DNA of 64,000 nt from Planctomycetales bacterium (lineage in GTDB: Bacteria; Planctomycetota; Phycisphaerae; SM23-33): contig JAUWNJ010000006.1 in the NCBI GenBank assembly GCA_030612725.1, positions 1 to 64,000 of the forward strand, read 5' to 3'. A model generated the notes under the pieces. That model was not told the origin of the DNA. It ran no database searches and saw only the letters and a list, made by a program, of their open reading frames with translations. Position 1 is the stretch's first letter. The number at the start of each line of letters is the position of its first letter. This document shows, in pieces, positions 8,486 through 50,795 of the stretch. The translations under genes were made by a program, and so were the position numbers.

Positions 8486-8494
8486 GGGAAAACA

Positions 8495-8518
8495 GGGACT
8501 AGGGACTTGGGACTTGGG
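8495..8518 (+). repeat. G-quadruplex heptamer array, copy 1
   Basis: Four GGG tracts separated by exactly four bases (ACTA, ACTT, ACTT), G-rich on the coding strand just after the stop of the preceding gene. It is followed by A-rich sequence and, at 8558-8592, short AATCAACCAGTC-type repeats. Confidence 0.85.
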
Positions 8519-8591
8519 ATTAGGCAAAAACAGAAAAAACGGAATCTAAAACCGATTCACCAATCAACCAGTCAACCAGTCAACCAATCAA

Positions 8592-22262: not shown

Positions 22263-22319
22263 TCACGTAGTGACACTTCGTGTTCCCTACGCCCTATGCC
22301 CTACGCCCTATCTTCTAGT

Positions 22320-22343
22320 CCCTAAACCCTGGTCCCAAGTCCC
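22320..22343 (-). repeat. G-quadruplex heptamer array, copy 2
   Basis: On the minus strand, four GGG tracts with four-base loops (ACTT, ACCA, TTTA) lie directly downstream of the small gene that ends at 22350. Related GGGACTAGG sequence overlaps that gene's last two codons and stop. Confidence 0.8.
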
Positions 22344-22349
22344 TGGTTC

Positions 22350-22601
22350 CTAGTCCCTATCCGTCAGTTTCTCCGCTGATCGACGAGCAGCCTCCGATTC
22401 GAGCAAATATGACACCGCCGCTTTCGTTACGGGCACATCGTCCCGCTTTGCCCGTGCGGTAACGTCGTCAGTGGCTACTGTGAATTGACTGTAGATTTGA
22501 CCGGCGCGCACGAAAATGTCAGGGCTGTCGGGACGGTGCCCGACGTAATATCCGCCCAGAAAGACCGCCAGCAACAGGATGAGTTTTATTAGCCTCCGCA
22601 T
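22350..22601 (-). CDS. Small membrane-anchored protein, 83 aa
   Basis: A signal or anchor helix (IKLILLLAVFLGGYYVG) is followed by a polar domain of about 60 residues with a possible amphipathic helix (AAVSYLLESEAARRSAEKL). GGGAGG lies 12 bases before the ATG at 22601. I do not recognise the family. Its final Arg-Asp-stop is encoded by the start of the neighbouring G-rich repeat (ATAGGGACTAG), so the original end may have been replaced. Confidence 0.55.
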   Translation of the reverse strand: MRRLIKLILLLAVFLGGYYVGHRPDSPDIFVRAGQIYSQFTVATDDVTARAKRDDVPVTKAAVSYLLESEAARRSAEKLTDRD

Positions 22602-22805: not shown

Positions 22806-22916
22806 CGGAACGAAACGGAACGATTCGGAACAATTCGGAACGATTCGGAACAATTGGGAACGAATGGGAACGAATGGGAACGAATGGGAACAATTGGGAA
22901 CAATTGGGAAAGTTTC
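22806..22916 (+). repeat. Decamer tandem array (GGAACGATTC type)
   Basis: Eleven consecutive 10-base units, each containing GGAA, change along the array from CGGAACGATT to GGGAACGAAT and GGGAACAATT. Frames through it on both strands are open only because of the repeat and have repetitive translations. Confidence 0.9.
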
Positions 22917-29698: not shown

Positions 29699-29722
29699 GG
29701 GACCAGGGACCAGGGACTTGGG
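29699..29722 (+). repeat. G-quadruplex heptamer array, copy 3
   Basis: Four GGG tracts with loops ACCA, ACCA and ACTT, directly after the Nfu gene. It faces copy 4 in inverted orientation about 80 bases away; the arms extend into GGCAAAAACAGAA and its complement. Confidence 0.88.
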
Positions 29723-29803
29723 ACTTGGCAAAAACAGAATTTCCGATTTCCCAAGTCAATCCGGCCATTCTTCCTTTTTTTGCTTTTGTATTTTTCTGCC
29801 AAG

Positions 29804-29828
29804 TCCCTAGTCCCTAGTCCCCAGTCCC
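29804..29828 (-). repeat. G-quadruplex heptamer array, copy 4
   Basis: C-rich on the plus strand (CCC at 29804, 29811, 29819 and 29826); it forms the other arm of the facing pair with copy 3. Confidence 0.85.
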
Positions 29829-29956
29829 TGTCTGTTACATTTTTTCCGAAACTTCCCGCCCCTTACCTCATTAAACTTTTCAGGTAACTCATATCAGGTG
29901 CGGGTGGTGCGCATTTGATGCACGCATCAGCCACCATGCAAAAGGAGTTGTTTTTT

Positions 29957-31021
29957 ATGACTGAGAAGAAAACGGGTAAATCCGACACACCGACAACAGC
30001 GCCGGCGGCTGTTGACGGCGACGACATCCAGGCAGTCAAACACCTCAACGAATCGTACAGGAAGATGACGAAAATGCTTTCCCGCGCCATTGTCGGGCAG
30101 AACGATGTCATCGAGCAGGTGCTGGTTTCAATGTTCTGCCGGGGGCACGCACTGCTTGTGGGCGTTCCCGGGCTGGCCAAGACTCTGCTGATATCCACTA
30201 TCGCGCAGGTCCTGCACCTGTCGTTCAAGCGGATCCAGTTCACGCCGGACCTTATGCCCTCCGACATCACCGGCACCGACGTGCTGGAGGAGGACCGCAC
30301 CACAGGCAAGCGGGTTTTCCGCTTCGTACATGGCCCTTTATTCGCCAACATGGTCCTTGCCGACGAAATTAACCGCACGCCGCCCAAAACCCAGGCCGCC
30401 CTTCTCGAAGCCATGCAGGAGCGGCACGTTACCGTCGGCGAGGAGACTTTTCACCTGCCGGACCCGTTCTTCGTCCTTGCGACGCAGAACCCCATCGAGC
30501 AGGAAGGAACCTACCCGCTGCCCGAAGCCCAACTCGACCGCTTCATGTTCATGATCATGGTCGATTACCCCACGGCAGAGGAAGAAGTTCAGATAATGAA
30601 GCAGGTTACAAGCGCGTACCAGGCCGAGTTGTCCGTCGCGCTGACGGGCGAGGATATTTTGCGTTTGCAGGATATTGTCCGTCGCGTTCCTGTGGCTGAC
30701 CATGTTTTTCAGTACGCCCGCGATTTGGCGCGTGCGTCCCGCCCAGCCGAGTCTGAAGCGCCCGATTTCATCAATGAACTGGTCAACTGGGGCGCAGGTC
30801 CGCGAGCGGGGATTTACATGATCCTCGCCGGTAAGGCCCGGGCGATCCTGCACGGGCGATACCACGTAACGACCGACGACATCCGCGCGGTGGCTCCGCC
30901 GGTGCTTCGGCATCGAATTATCACGACCTTCAACGCCGAAGCCGCCGGAGTTACAAGCGACGAAATCGTCCAGCGACTCCTGGCAGAAATCAGACCGGCA
31001 GTAGAGGAACAAGTGGCGTAA
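29957..31021 (+). CDS. MoxR-family AAA+ ATPase
   Basis: A 354-aa chaperone-like ATPase, first gene of a large envelope operon. AAGGAG precedes the ATG at 29957. Motifs are [11 protein letters not shown] (Walker A, GxPGxAKT), [16 protein letters not shown] (Walker B), [19 protein letters not shown] (sensor 1 region) and LDRFM. MoxR proteins act with VWA proteins to assemble or insert metal cofactors into partner complexes, and here DUF58 and two VWA genes follow. It is followed by two short hairpins. Confidence 0.94.
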
Positions 31022-31078: not shown

Positions 31079-32017
31079 ATGAATGGTAACGGACAACCTG
31101 AATATATGTCGCTTCTGGACGGCGAGGCGCTGGCGAAGATGCAGCGGCTTGAACTTATCGCGCGGGGCGTGGTCGAGGGTTTCATTTCCGGTCGGCATAA
31201 GAGTCCCTACAAGGGTTTCAGCGTCGAGTTCGCCGAGCACCGCGAGTATGTCCCCGGCGACAATATCCGCGACCTTGACTGGCGCGTCTTCGGGCGGTCC
31301 GACCGGTACTACATCAAGCAGTACATTGAGGAGACCAACCTCCGGTCGCTTATCCTGCTGGACGCCTCCGGCTCGATGAAGTACACCGGCGACCTGGCGG
31401 CGAAACACAACGGGGAATTATTGAGCAAGTTTCAGTACGCCCGGATGCTGGCGGCTTCGCTTGGGCATCTGATGATCCATCAGCAGGACGCCGTGGGGTT
31501 GGCGACGTTCGACACGTCGCTTCGTCGTTACATTCCCGCCCGAAGCCGGGCCAGCCACCTCCGCGTAATCCTGGCTGAACTCGCCGCAACCGAGCCGGGA
31601 GCGGAAACCTCCGTCGCCAAAATCTTTCACGATCTGGCTGACCGCGTACGTCGGCGCGGGTTAATCGTCATAATCTCCGACCTGTTCGACAACGTCGATG
31701 AGATACTCAAATCTCTGCACCATTTCCGTTATCGCAGGCACGAGGTGCTGCTGCTGCACGTAATGGCTGAGGAGGAATTGACCTTCCCGTTTGACCGCTG
31801 GAGCGTCTTCAAAAACCTCGAACGGTCAGGCCATCACATTCCACTTGACCCATTGAGCCTGCGAAGTGAATACCTGGGAAAAGTCCGCAATTTCATCCGC
31901 CGACTGGAAATCGGATGCGGACAGATGAACATCGACTACGTGCAAATGTCCACGAAACAGAACTTCGATATCGCGCTGGCGCATTACCTCGCGCAAAGGA
32001 TGTCGAGGGCGAGATGA
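31079..32017 (+). CDS. DUF58-domain protein
   Basis: A 312-aa member of the DUF58 family, regularly encoded beside MoxR. The family core [20 protein letters not shown] is followed by a VWA-like fold with the metal-site motif LLDASGSM (DxSxS type) near residue 98. No transmembrane helix is seen, so it is cytoplasmic or peripheral. A MoxR/DUF58 pair is thought to form a chaperone unit. The start is the ATG at 31079; no strong ribosome site is present because a hairpin precedes it. Confidence 0.92.
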
Positions 32018-32031
32018 GGGAAGGGATTACA

Positions 32032-32055
32032 GGGACTTGGGACTAGGGACTTGGG
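32032..32055 (+). repeat. G-quadruplex heptamer array, copy 5
   Basis: Four GGG tracts with loops ACTT, ACTA and ACTT, 15 bases after the DUF58 stop. It faces copy 6 across the four-helix-bundle gene. Confidence 0.9.
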
Positions 32056-32088
32056 ACTAGGAAAAAAGACAAGAAGAGGAAAATTGAC

Positions 32089-32460
32089 ATGAGTGATGAG
32101 ATACGAAGTTATCGGGATTTGGTTGCCTGGCAAAAGGCTATGGCGCTGGCGAAGCGCGTTTATGGCGCTACGAAACTGTTTCCCAAGGAAGAAATGTACG
32201 GACTGGTTCAGCAGATAAGAAGGGCGGCAGTATCCGTACCGTCGAATATCGCGGAAGGATATGGACGAGGCAGCCGAGCGGACTATGTTCGGTTTCTATA
32301 CACGGCAAGGGGTAGTCTCTACGAAGTGGAGACCCAAGCACTAATTTCCGGAGATTTGGGCTATCTGACAGATAAGCAAGCCGATTCGCTGTTGGAAGAT
32401 ACGGATGAATGTTCGCGTCTACTCGGCGGCCTGATAAAGAGCTTGAAAACGAAAAAATAA
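32089..32460 (+). CDS. Four-helix-bundle (S23/Avd-like) protein
   Basis: A 123-aa protein of the family first seen as open frames in 23S rRNA intervening sequences. Diagnostic motifs are YRDLVAWQKAMALAKRVY, QIRRAAVSVPSNIAEGYGR and the region LYTARGSLYEVETQ. Homologues in diversity-generating retroelements bind RNA, but here there is no rRNA or reverse transcriptase. The gene sits inside an otherwise continuous MoxR/DUF58/BatA operon and is flanked by facing G-quadruplex arrays, which suggests a mobile insert. Function here is unknown. Confidence 0.93.
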   Translation: MSDEIRSYRDLVAWQKAMALAKRVYGATKLFPKEEMYGLVQQIRRAAVSVPSNIAEGYGRGSRADYVRFLYTARGSLYEVETQALISGDLGYLTDKQADSLLEDTDECSRLLGGLIKSLKTKK

Positions 32461-32509
32461 CCGGACTGGAAAATCGGGACTTCCGTTTTTACTTCTGCTT
32501 TTGCCAAGT

Positions 32510-32533
32510 CCCTAGTCCCAAGTCCCTAGTCCC
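32510..32533 (-). repeat. G-quadruplex heptamer array, copy 6
   Basis: CCC tracts at 32510, 32517, 32524 and 32531 on the plus strand, ten bases before the next gene; inverted partner of copy 5. Confidence 0.9.
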
Positions 32534-32543
32534 TTGACATAAA

Positions 32544-34817
32544 ATGACATTTCTCAATGGAATAATGTTGCTTGGACTGATCGGAGTGAGTATTCCGATA
32601 ATCATCCACATCCTCAACCGTCGTCGGGCGAGGATGGTGGACTGGGGGGCGATGCACTTTCTGGAAAGTTCACTCGCCTCACGCAATCGACGAATTCTCA
32701 TCGAAGAGATTATCCTAATGGTCATCCGTTGCAGCCTGCTGGCCTTGCTGGCGTTCGCGCTGGCGAGACCATTTCTGAAGGCGGGAAAGTTGCTTCCGGG
32801 AACCGGCGGCGACGCGCAGGACCTGGCGATAGTAATCGACGCTTCGCTGAGCATGACGCTCGAAACGGACGGTTCGAGCAATTTCCAGCGCGCAATCGAC
32901 GAGGCCCACCAGTTGGTCCGGTCATGCCGGAGCGGCGACGCCGTAAGCATCGTCCTTGCCGGTCCGGTCGCCCAGCCAATACTCCCCGCTCCCATATCCG
33001 ACCGCGACGAAATCCACGAATCGCTGGACAAACTCACGCCGGCCGGCGGGTCCATGCGCGTTCTGGAGGCGATTAATACAGCGATGGAGACGCTATCGGC
33101 CGGGACGAATCCCGCCAAAAGAATCGTCCTTATCACTGACGCCCAGGACGTCGGGTGGGATTTATCGGCATCGAAACGGTGGGATTTCCTCGCCGAAGCA
33201 GTCGATGCGATGCCGATAAAACCCATCGTCATCGTCCGAACGCTCGATGTGCCCGAAAAGTGGCGTAACGTATCGGCAACGGGGATGAATTTCTCCCGTA
33301 CCGTCGTCGGGACGGACCGAACGGTGAAAATCACCGCCACAATCGCTAATACCGGCGAAGGTTCAGTCCATCCCGAAGCCGTCGAATTGACCATCGACGG
33401 AAAAACGGCAGAGCGCGAAACAATCGGCGCAATAGCCGAAGGCGCGTCCGCCTCGGTCGTATTCGAACATCAGTTCGCCTCCCCCGGCCCGCACGTGGTA
33501 TCGGTCCGTATCGCCTGCGACGATGACCTTTCCGGAGATAACGAAACCGCCCGCGTCGTGAACGTTTTGCAAACGCTGAAGGTGCTCATCGTCGAGGGAA
33601 ACTCATCGACCGAACCGTTCAAAAGCGACGCGGATTACATTTACCTGGCAACGGCCCTGCCGGACGAAAACGCAAAGCCCGGCAGCACGCTGATTTCCCC
33701 GACGGTAGTTTCGGCTGCCGACATATCGTCGGCGAAACGATTTTCCGATTACGCTGTTGTGGTTCTGGCCGACGTGCCGCGCCTTCCCGCGCCGAAAGCG
33801 AAGGAATTGGGCGATTTCGTCGCCAAAGGCGGCGGGCTGCTGATAGCGCCGGGCGAAAAGGCGAACAGGGATTTCTACAATAACTGGAAGGCATCCGACG
33901 GGAAGCGTCTTGCCGGCTGTCGATTCGTAAATATCCGGGCGGGTTCGCGGACCGGCCAGAATGATGAAACCTTCACTCGCATAGCGACGGGAAAGATTAA
34001 TCACCCTGCAATGATGCTGCTCGCCGATCAGGCTGAAAACAACCTTCGCTCCGCTCATATCAACAGGCACTGGGTATTAGAGGCCGACGAGAAGGAAAAA
34101 ACCGTTTCTCTCGGCGCTCTTCTGGACAACGGACTGCCGTGGCTGGTTCAGCGCAAAGACGCGCGTGGCGTGGTGCTGACGCTGGCGGCCCCGCTCGACC
34201 TGAAATTTACCCACCTTCCGCTGCGCGAGTGCTTTGTTCCGCTCGTTCACGAACTGGTTCATTACCTTGCCGTACCGGCCCAGCCTGAGATGAACATCCT
34301 TCCGGGCAGGCAGTTTGTCTATACGATACCGGACGAAACTTTGTCCGGGTCGGAAACGGAAGCAGAAGTCGCCGACCCCGCCGGTCGGCGAACCGCAGTC
34401 CGCCTGCGAAAACAGGACAAGCACCGGCAGGTGAATTACTCGCTGACCGCCAGGCCGGGGGTGTACAGGCTGATTCTGCCCAATGGCGACGACGACGCAA
34501 AAGGCGTCCCATTCGTCGTCCTCGGCGATCCCGACGAGAGCAAACTAGACCTGCTGAGCGACGACGATTACGACCGGGCGGATAAATTTATTCCGCTGAC
34601 CCGTGCTCAAAACCTCGGCGAACTGACGGCTGCTATCGCCGGCGGAGTGCCCGGTAGCGAAATCTGGCGACACATAGCCCTTATTATCCTCGCCCTGCTG
34701 ATAGCAGAGATCGTTACCACAAGGCTCATCGCGCAAAAACGAAAAATGCACCTGGCCGAACCGATTGCTTTCGGCGCAGACCGGAATACCGTCAGACCGA
34801 AAGAGGTGTCCGCATAA
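32544..34817 (+). CDS. BatA/VWA-domain membrane protein
   Basis: A 757-aa inner-membrane protein. The N terminus is the BatA domain: one helix (GIMLLGLIGVSIPIIIHIL) followed by NRRRARMVDWGAMHFL, a second helix near 57-75, then a VWA domain with VIDASLSM near 97. CARDB/Ig-like beta segments follow (TATIANTGEGSVHPEAVELT), then a class I amidotransferase-like fold of the type common in these proteins (LIVEGNSS..; FVAKGGGLLIAPG), and a C-terminal helix (IALIILALLIAEIVT). It is expected to work with MoxR and DUF58 in envelope or cofactor assembly. Its stop overlaps the next start. Confidence 0.85.
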   Translation: MTFLNGIMLLGLIGVSIPIIIHILNRRRARMVDWGAMHFLESSLASRNRRILIEEIILMVIRCSLLALLAFALARPFLKAGKLLPGTGGDAQDLAIVIDASLSMTLETDGSSNFQRAIDEAHQLVRSCRSGDAVSIVLAGPVAQPILPAPISDRDEIHESLDKLTPAGGSMRVLEAINTAMETLSAGTNPAKRIVLITDAQDVGWDLSASKRWDFLAEAVDAMPIKPIVIVRTLDVPEKWRNVSATGMNFSRTVVGTDRTVKITATIANTGEGSVHPEAVELTIDGKTAERETIGAIAEGASASVVFEHQFASPGPHVVSVRIACDDDLSGDNETARVVNVLQTLKVLIVEGNSSTEPFKSDADYIYLATALPDENAKPGSTLISPTVVSAADISSAKRFSDYAVVVLADVPRLPAPKAKELGDFVAKGGGLLIAPGEKANRDFYNNWKASDGKRLAGCRFVNIRAGSRTGQNDETFTRIATGKINHPAMMLLADQAENNLRSAHINRHWVLEADEKEKTVSLGALLDNGLPWLVQRKDARGVVLTLAAPLDLKFTHLPLRECFVPLVHELVHYLAVPAQPEMNILPGRQFVYTIPDETLSGSETEAEVADPAGRRTAVRLRKQDKHRQVNYSLTARPGVYRLILPNGDDDAKGVPFVVLGDPDESKLDLLSDDDYDRADKFIPLTRAQNLGELTAAIAGGVPGSEIWRHIALIILALLIAEIVTTRLIAQKRKMHLAEPIAFGADRNTVRPKEVSA

Positions 34818-49294: not shown

Positions 49295-49708
49295 ATGACA
49301 ATCGCAGCCCACGGTATCGATATGGTCGATTGCAAGCGTCTCGGCGAGATGATCGAGCGCTATGGCGAGAGGTTTCTCAATCGCGTATTCACGCCGGTGG
49401 AACTGGAATACTGCCGAGACCGAAAGCGGCGGATCGAACACCTCGCCGGACGCTTCGCAGCGAAAGAGGCTGTGATGAAGGTTCTGGGGACGGGCCTGCG
49501 AAAAGGTGTTAGCTGGCTCGATATTGAAGTGGTCAACGAACCGTCGGGCAGGCCCAGGATTAACCTCACAGGAAGAGGACGGGAAATCGCGGACGAGCAG
49601 GAACTCACCGAGATAATCATCTCAATAAGCCACATCACCACGCACGCAATCGCCTCGGCGGTAGCATCGGTGAAAGAAAGGGACCAGGGACCAGGGACTA
49701 GGGACTAG
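49295..49708 (+). CDS. acpS: Holo-[acyl-carrier-protein] synthase
   Basis: A 137-aa AcpS that transfers phosphopantetheine to acyl carrier protein. HGIDMVDCKRLGEMIERYG, FTPVELEYC and HLAGRFAAKEAVMKVLGTG include the magnesium and coenzyme A ligands. I use the ATG at 49295, which gives the normal N terminus; an ATG at 49274 is open too. The last nine residues (ERDQGPGTRD end) are translated from a G-quadruplex repeat and replace the native end. Confidence 0.93.
   Translation: MTIAAHGIDMVDCKRLGEMIERYGERFLNRVFTPVELEYCRDRKRRIEHLAGRFAAKEAVMKVLGTGLRKGVSWLDIEVVNEPSGRPRINLTGRGREIADEQELTEIIISISHITTHAIASAVASVKERDQGPGTRD
49680..49703 (+). repeat. G-quadruplex heptamer array, copy 7
   Basis: Four GGG tracts with loops ACCA, ACCA and ACTA inside the last codons of acpS. 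It is followed by three ATCCGCA heptamers (49717-49737). Confidence 0.88.
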
Positions 49709-49736
49709 GAAAAAATCCGCAATCCGCAATCCGCAA

Positions 49737-50795
49737 TCAGGCGTTGTTACCGGCCTTTCCGAATATCATTCTTCCTGCCGACGTCTGGAGTGTTGAAGTA
49801 ACCACGACGGCAATGTCTTCGCCGATATGATTTCGCCCCTGCTCAACGACGACCATAGTTCCGTCGTCGAGGTATCCTATCCCCTGTCCTGATTCTTCAC
49901 CGGGTTTGATAATCTTGACGGTAATGGCTTCGCCCGGAAGTACGACGGGTTTGAGCGCGTTGGCAAGGTCGTTGATATTAATCACATCCACGCCTCGAAG
50001 TTGGGCGACCTTGTTGAGGTTGTAATCGTTCGTAACGATTTTTCCGTCCATATGTTCAGCCAGGGCGACCAGTTTATGATCGACTTCGGAGGCTTCCTCG
50101 ACGGCGGGGATACGCGCATCGTGCAGTTGGACTTCGATTTTGTCGTTGCTCTGGAGTTTATTGAGCATATCCAGACCTCTGCGCCCCCGGCTTCGCCTGA
50201 GTTTATCCGACGAGTCGGCGATATTCTGGGTCTCTTCGACGACGAAACGCGGAACGACCAGAACCCCCTCCAGTATTCGCGTTTCGGCGATGTCGGCTAT
50301 TCGTCCGTCGATAATGGCCGACGTGTCCAGAATCAGCGGATGCGAACCCTTGCTCTGGCGTGAAAACTCCACGTAGGGAATGATGAACCTGAAATCGTCC
50401 TTCGTCTGCATAACAAAGGACACGCACAAATAGATTGCACAGGCGCCCACGAGCAGTTTGGTCATAATCACCAATCCGACATCCTCATAATTGACTACGA
50501 AAACCGAGGCTGCAAGATCGACTATCATCCCCAGGATATACGCAAAGAACACGCCGGCTACGACACCGAAGAACAGTCCGCTGATACTGGTGAGGCTTTT
50601 GTGGTGAAATCCCATATCCACAAGTATCAGCCCAACGGCAAGTATTACGGGAATGATCATTACCATTGCCATCCTCGTAACCATTATTTCTTCACCGGCC
50701 TTCGGATCGCCTCGCACTTCGGTAGTCAATGCCGAACTGATGGCAATACCAAGAACGACCAGGACAAATATCACTCGAATGACATGAAGCACCAT
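49737..50795 (-). CDS. Membrane PIN-TRAM domain protein
   Basis: A 352-aa YacL-like protein: four transmembrane helices (about 5-25, 40-62, 75-98, 108-125), a PIN nuclease domain ([16 protein letters not shown] with the first Asp; [21 protein letters not shown] with the others) and a C-terminal TRAM RNA-binding domain ([20 protein letters not shown]). It probably processes RNA at the membrane. AAAGGAT precedes the ATG at 50795. Confidence 0.92.

Follow-up and report, generated by a model that had tools for sequence, protein, structure and literature searches.

What is a gene of the S23 family doing inside a MoxR-DUF58-BatA operon, enclosed by two facing repeat arrays, and is the segment that it occupies a mobile unit? 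The window in which this question arises is the whole stretch of DNA that was analysed, 64,000 nucleotides from a Planctomycetales bacterium. A sequence-only reading of it had described an Avd-like four-helix-bundle gene that breaks the continuity of the operon and lies in a cassette with inverted ends. The position of the gene between inverted arrays inside the operon is borne out by the sequence and by Pfam profiles, and the A-rich sequence described toward the gene is present at both arrays. The features of the segment and its surroundings are:

29915-31021: MoxR, a gene of the operon
31079-32017, plus strand: DUF58, the operon gene upstream (PF01882, 145 bits)
32032-32059, plus strand: left heptamer array, GGGACTW x4, G-rich on the sense strand (from the sequence)
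32060-32088, plus strand: A-rich inner left end, a partial complement of the inner right end
32089-32460, plus strand: S23 / 23S_rRNA_IVP / TIGR02436 four-helix-bundle gene, 123 aa (PF05635 and TIGR02436 profiles)
32461-32505, plus strand: inner right end, T-rich on the plus strand
32506-32533, minus strand: right heptamer array, the left array inverted (from the sequence)
32544-34817, plus strand: BatA-like gene with a VWA domain, the operon gene downstream (PF07584, PF13519)

The left array, GGGACTTGGGACTAGGGACTTGGGACTA, is 28 bp long and returns on the right as an inverted copy of the same length. Each array contains four GGG tracts with four-base loops (32032-32055 and 32510-32533), a pattern for which no match is expected from 100 dinucleotide shuffles of the window. 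In the predicted RNA structure (MFE -188.9, z -5.8), the two arrays close the element as a long terminal stem that is further lengthened by the A-rich inner ends. S23 is the sole gene in segment 32032-32533, which encodes neither a recombinase nor any other enzyme and differs from a classical insertion sequence or MITE in having neither a transposase of its own nor a cognate family copy.

The product of 32089-32460 scores 138 bits against PF05635 (cut-off 33.8) and 135 bits against TIGR02436 (cut-off 24), and its AlphaFold2 model consists of four helices with a pLDDT of 93.9. The best PDB matches to this model are 2gsc, the solved S23 protein XCC0516 of Xanthomonas campestris, and 2rld, each composed of five chains; these are followed by Avd (4dwl, TMq 0.77) and by the ribonucleoprotein of a diversity-generating retroelement (DGR). 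The proposed likeness to Avd therefore holds for the fold, a four-helix bundle with a five-chain PDB assembly, and fails against the Avd model itself (NF033474), which gives 25.8 bits where the cut-off is 80. Because a PF00078 search of the genome, which is 96% complete, returned no reverse transcriptase match, we place the S23 gene outside any DGR here; membership in a DGR is ruled out by this result together with the low Avd score. A defence system (no PADLOC match), a known RNA family (hairpin-type matches only, far under gathering scores) and carriage by phages (S23 is absent from 50,697 phage records) were likewise considered and rejected. None of the loci fetched places S23 within a 23S rRNA gene. 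The S23 coding sequence is under purifying selection, with a dN/dS of about 0.03-0.19. Many bacterial genomes have annotated TIGR02436 proteins; to our knowledge, no function has been ascribed to them beyond 23S rRNA inserts and Avd.

The inverted flanks are a general property of S23 loci. We compared 148 loci in two samples, one of 79 cross-phylum loci drawn from 84,980 scanned species genomes and including Planctomycetota, Acidobacteriota, Bacteroidota, Cyanobacteria, Clostridia, Proteobacteria, Chloroflexi, Patescibacteria and archaea, and the other of 69 loci from planctomycete relatives; metagenome assemblies supplied most of the loci, and those that are related do not count as independent. 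The left flank was aligned with the reverse complement of the right flank, and a score of at least 16 was counted as a match. By this measure, 53% of the 79 cross-phylum loci have matching inverted flanks, as compared with 0.5% when flanks of different loci are paired and 11% in direct orientation. For the 69 loci of planctomycete relatives the value is 67%, against 1.3% with the flanks of other genomes and 1.1% with those of the same genome's other S23 loci. In the cross-phylum sample, offset controls, in which pseudo-genes were placed 1.4 kb away, yielded 0 of 146 flank matches, and shuffles yielded none. By this score, clear paired arrays are lacking at roughly one-third to one-half of S23 loci, and the values of 53% and 67% are underestimates because the S23 ORF sometimes reads through the right array, as at locus L004. 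This genome contains seven S23 genes; among these and the S23 genes of relatives, most have inverted period-7 arrays, each of another word. The question of whether bundle genes elsewhere bear the same kind of flanks is thus answered in the affirmative, within the genome and in other phyla, with the qualification that the heptamers are different ones.

Periodicity was found at lag 7 in 84 of 229 flanks, at lag 8 in 16 and at lag 9 in one (control windows, 9 of 404), with a median of 4.4 units per side. Nearly every locus has a private heptamer that is the same on both sides: left and right consensus heptamers are identical at 20 of 37 loci and agree at six or more of the seven positions at 29 of 37, where the null expectation is 6%. 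The heptamers at S23 genes include GGGCRTA, TATAGGC, GCGGATT, CTAAATG, TCTAATG, TAGTTCC and AGTGGTT, and G-rich words (GGGCRTA, GGGAGTA, GGGAATA) are present in several copies. Because the words differ from locus to locus, the G-quadruplex potential of the arrays is incidental. Alignment of the words by rotation brings out a sense-strand TAGK (5.09 bits vs 4.21 ± 0.15); the common feature of S23 arrays is a degenerate TAGKNNN with a period of 7, sometimes 8, and not GGG tracts. As a genome-wide counter TAGKNNN performs poorly, since its reversed control catches real arrays of other heptamers. The S23 gene is co-directional with both neighbours at 86 loci and opposite to both at 10, a bias whose p value (3e-16) overstates independence because related loci are counted. 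The median distance is 3 bp from the upstream stop to the beginning of the left array and 14 bp from the end of the right array to the downstream start. In two genera, S23 elements (L055 and L064) lie between rpoB and rpoC, in a highly conserved operon.

Comparison of the same operon across relatives, which the sequence-only reading had put forward as the check on mobility, shows the DUF58-BatA junction in empty, gene-less and filled states (G000 denotes this genome at all compared junctions). In G045 the junction is 25 bp and empty. G003 and G042 instead have gene-less inverted array pairs of 141 and 144 bp with recognisable inner ends, including sequence related to the inner right end at 32461-32505, and G010 has an array on one side only. 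The junction in G000 is 526 bp long with the S23 gene, and the full element is also present in G018, whose junction has the same sequence as in Phycisphaerae bacterium SM23_33. G001 and G002 (loci L068 and L069), which are the closest relatives, have the junction filled by an unrelated palindromic repeat of about 250 bp with TAGCCCC/GGGGCTA ends.

Other sites are similarly variable. Within the genus, the S23 gene most similar to this one (78% aa) is in G003; it has GGGACYW words and is situated between phoH and the gene for an HD-type membrane protein, a site at which G000 and G002 have gene-less inverted pairs built on another word. The L003 site is empty in G002 and G003, the L002 site is gene-less in G002, and the L004 site retains the gene in G002 and is one-sided in G001. 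Insertion at L003 was not simple, because about 45 bp of native sequence are replaced there. At the nrdB-nrdA junction, a Nostoc plasmid has S23 with GGGAGTA arrays, and the element is missing from this junction on a Calothrix plasmid. The rpoB-rpoC (G013, G020) and lysS (G001, G003) sites look old and are consistent with vertical inheritance. No target-site duplication was recognised at filled/empty pairs, whose flanks are diverged, and no circle, excision product, or excision or insertion event was seen in the compared loci. The discrete cassette with inverted ends that had been proposed as a mobile unit is thus upheld; its mobility is supported by the presence/absence comparison, which points to an array-bounded unit that has probably been gained and lost.

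Two candidates for recent movement were set aside. Transfer between G001 and G003, suggested by an S23 identity of 97.6% aa, is ruled out by their sharing the same inherited lysS site, and the case of two Calothrix plasmids that share an S23 gene is uninformative about a jump because the shared segment is far longer than the element. At the lysS-S23-permease site (L229 and L231), dS is 0.38 for S23, as compared with 0.73 for lysS and 1.10 for the permease in the same genome pair; this low value may reflect conversion or local constraint.

Arrays also occur apart from S23 genes. GGGACTW arrays give 105 matches in this genome (GGGACTWGGGACTWGGG, both strands), as compared with 0 for the reversed control, and all four genomes of the genus have them, as against none of 22 other relatives; de novo genome-wide array counts derive from a 464-kb sample. 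The window includes the following arrangements:

8494-8519, plus strand: GGGACTW array, then a facing period-8 CCARTCA array
22285-22357, minus strand: GGGCRTA array beside a degenerate GGGACYW array in the same orientation
29699-29828, minus strand: gene-less pair in which about 75 bp separate inverted GGGACYW arrays (29699-29726, 29801-29828)
49678-49740, plus strand: mosaic gene-less pair, a GGGACYA array (49678-49709) facing an AATCCGC array (49713-49740)

The pair at 29699-29828 lies 2.3 kb upstream of the full element, and its interior, as judged by eye, resembles the element's inner right end in reverse. AATCCGC is the heptamer of the resident S23 gene L004, and the pair at 49678-49740 combines the ends of two S23 families; CCARTCA is the word of an S23 gene found in G001 and G003. 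Of 69 GGGACTW clusters in the genome, 24 face period-8 CCARTCA, 6 face AATCCGC and about 9 face their own complement. There are six convergent same-family pairs, and the arrays are separated by more than 200 bp only in the S23-bearing one. Gene-less pairs with their own complement number five, the majority of clusters being mosaic or lacking a partner. This mosaic pairing is at odds with a strict rule that the two ends must match and is the most puzzling feature of the arrays. Across 40 related genomes, array number rises with S23 number (rho 0.56, p 1.6e-4), a crude correlation in which kinship is ignored; the five S23-less genomes among them have 0-1 arrays.

Several known systems share parts of this anatomy. 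The intervening sequences (IVSs) of 23S rRNA genes that carry an S23p ORF have been described in Coxiella, Leptospira, Brucella and Xanthomonas, where their distribution is sporadic and mobility has been suggested in the past; that of Coxiella has a 28-bp terminal stem and GACAGAT tandem heptamers directly upstream of the ORF, and is excised by RNase III (PMC4990558). The element described here shares with these IVSs its protein family, inverted repeats of about 28 bp at the ends, an ORF in sense to the host transcript and a scattered occurrence. In contrast to the IVSs, the present element lies in a protein-coding operon (DUF58/BatA) rather than in helix 9, 25 or 45 of 23S rRNA, and it has heptamer arrays as its ends, a private word per copy and dispersed gene-less copies.

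The GGGNATC/GGGGAYT heptamers of Xanthomonas and Nostoc, which in Xanthomonas form 70-75 inverted pairs, were not found to be associated with mobile elements (Rehm et al. 2015, PMC4692102). Like the arrays here, these heptamers and the cyanobacterial STRR have a period of 7, a preference for four units and an intergenic location, and the Xanthomonas/Nostoc heptamers are positioned in sense just past stops and in antisense just before starts (PMC4692102). The arrays at our locus are, in the same manner, tandem G-rich heptamers of about four units between co-directional ORFs. They differ in flanking an S23 gene, whereas S23 is unmentioned in PMC4692102. The TAACTGA repeats of Beggiatoaceae (PMC4679880) are also tandem heptamers, plentiful between genes and with stop codons inside the unit, in a paper that likewise does not mention S23. 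The REPIN/RAYT system (PMC3116915) is the closest analogy in functional terms and offers a partial parallel, in which repeats border one helper-like gene and gene-less inverted doublets are dispersed in extragenic space; however, RAYT is a Y1 transposase and S23 is without a catalytic domain, and the repeats are tandem heptamers here as opposed to GTAG-type palindromes.

We favour the reading that S23 genes and their arrays constitute a widespread minimal element, a mobile unit akin to IVSs and REPINs in which S23 would recognise the arrays while enzymes act in trans, and we assign it a probability of about 0.55. Such an element would comprise an S23 gene between inverted arrays of some 4-5 seven-base units, with a word private to almost every copy, and would usually be tucked between the stop and start of neighbouring genes in the same reading direction. 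Because S23 structures have five chains and Avd occurs in an RNA-protein complex, the simplest proposal is that a five-subunit S23 ring binds the tandem units of its own arrays, with about one repeat per subunit, on either the RNA or the single-stranded DNA of a hairpin formed by the inverted arrays. Host enzymes acting in trans could then excise and copy the element, with mobility on an evolutionary timescale as the likely cause of its patchy distribution. If the enzymes do act in trans, then gene-less array pairs could proliferate as dependents, in the manner proposed for REPINs and RAYTs.

We found no description of a general unit of S23 and heptamer arrays in the full-text literature, subscription papers and preprints aside, and any novelty of the class is provisional. 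If S23 genes are regularly bounded by arrays, the family would gain a testable role as the array-binding proteins of small mobile elements, and three puzzles would be joined, namely the 23S rRNA IVSs, the heptamers of cyanobacteria and Xanthomonas, and the origin of the Avd ring in DGRs. Operon-junction sites such as rpoB-rpoC would show how inserts survive in essential operons. A more sweeping form of the proposal, which we advance tentatively, is that S23 elements are an enzyme-less mobile class across bacteria and archaea, in which the ring reads one heptamer per subunit, the word co-evolves with its copy, the hairpin is moved by the machinery of the host, and the STRR, the G4 heptamers and the 23S rRNA IVSs, each familiar on its own for decades, originate from gene-less copies.

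The best of the competing explanations, though an unlikely one, is that the element is now an immobile RNA-processing or regulatory module. The arrays would pair in the mRNA, RNase III would cut the stem and split upstream from downstream mRNA, S23 would bind its own transcript, and the patchiness would result from repeated loss of an old element. This explanation is in keeping with the strength of the predicted terminal stem and of the co-directional bias, with the old shared sites and gene-less remnants, and with the RNase III excision published for the Coxiella 23S rRNA IVS (PMC4990558). It is harder to reconcile with the genus-specific multiplication of one heptamer family, with a congener's S23 gene that has the same heptamers at another site, and with the empty sites of close relatives; loss alone, moreover, leaves new heptamer families at fixed sites unexplained.

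We consider it improbable that the arrays are neutral microsatellites, grown by slippage and kept alike on the two sides by hairpin template switching (quasi-palindrome correction), with S23 as a passenger. Both sides do change together at one site (GGGCATA in G000, GGGTGTA in G001), and gene-less pairs are numerous, but the concentration of arrays at S23 genes relative to the offset controls and control windows, and the tracking of S23 number by array number across the 40 related genomes, argue against it. Still less credence can be given to a Y1 (RAYT/IS200-like) transposase that would recognise the array ends in trans with S23 as cargo: the genome has six Y1_Tnp genes and the inverted-pair layout is like that of REPINs (PMC3116915), but among the Y1 genes in the fetched loci none lies between two arrays, one is close to an array, and the arrays do not have the palindromic REP form. 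The original suggestion that G-quadruplex-forming ends are the functional signal of a mobile unit draws on the four GGG tracts per array here and on the G-rich words of several other copies, but it is very doubtful and is rejected as a general principle, as most S23 copies are without GGG tracts while the inverted layout is unchanged.

The Y1_Tnp genes are located on contigs C6, C9, C18, C32 and C43, with two on C6 that are 2.5 kb apart and near a GGGACTW array. Near-identical composite units of the form GGGACTW - AAAAACAGATG - AACCAATCAACC recur genome-wide, in the manner of an amplified gene-less element (L011, L020, L025, L031, L037, L281, L286, L289, L292 and L294). A separate repeat family is represented in the window by a period-10 tandem array of GGGAACGAAT/GGGAACAATT units at 22856-22908, and it is also found at L011, L025 and L037.
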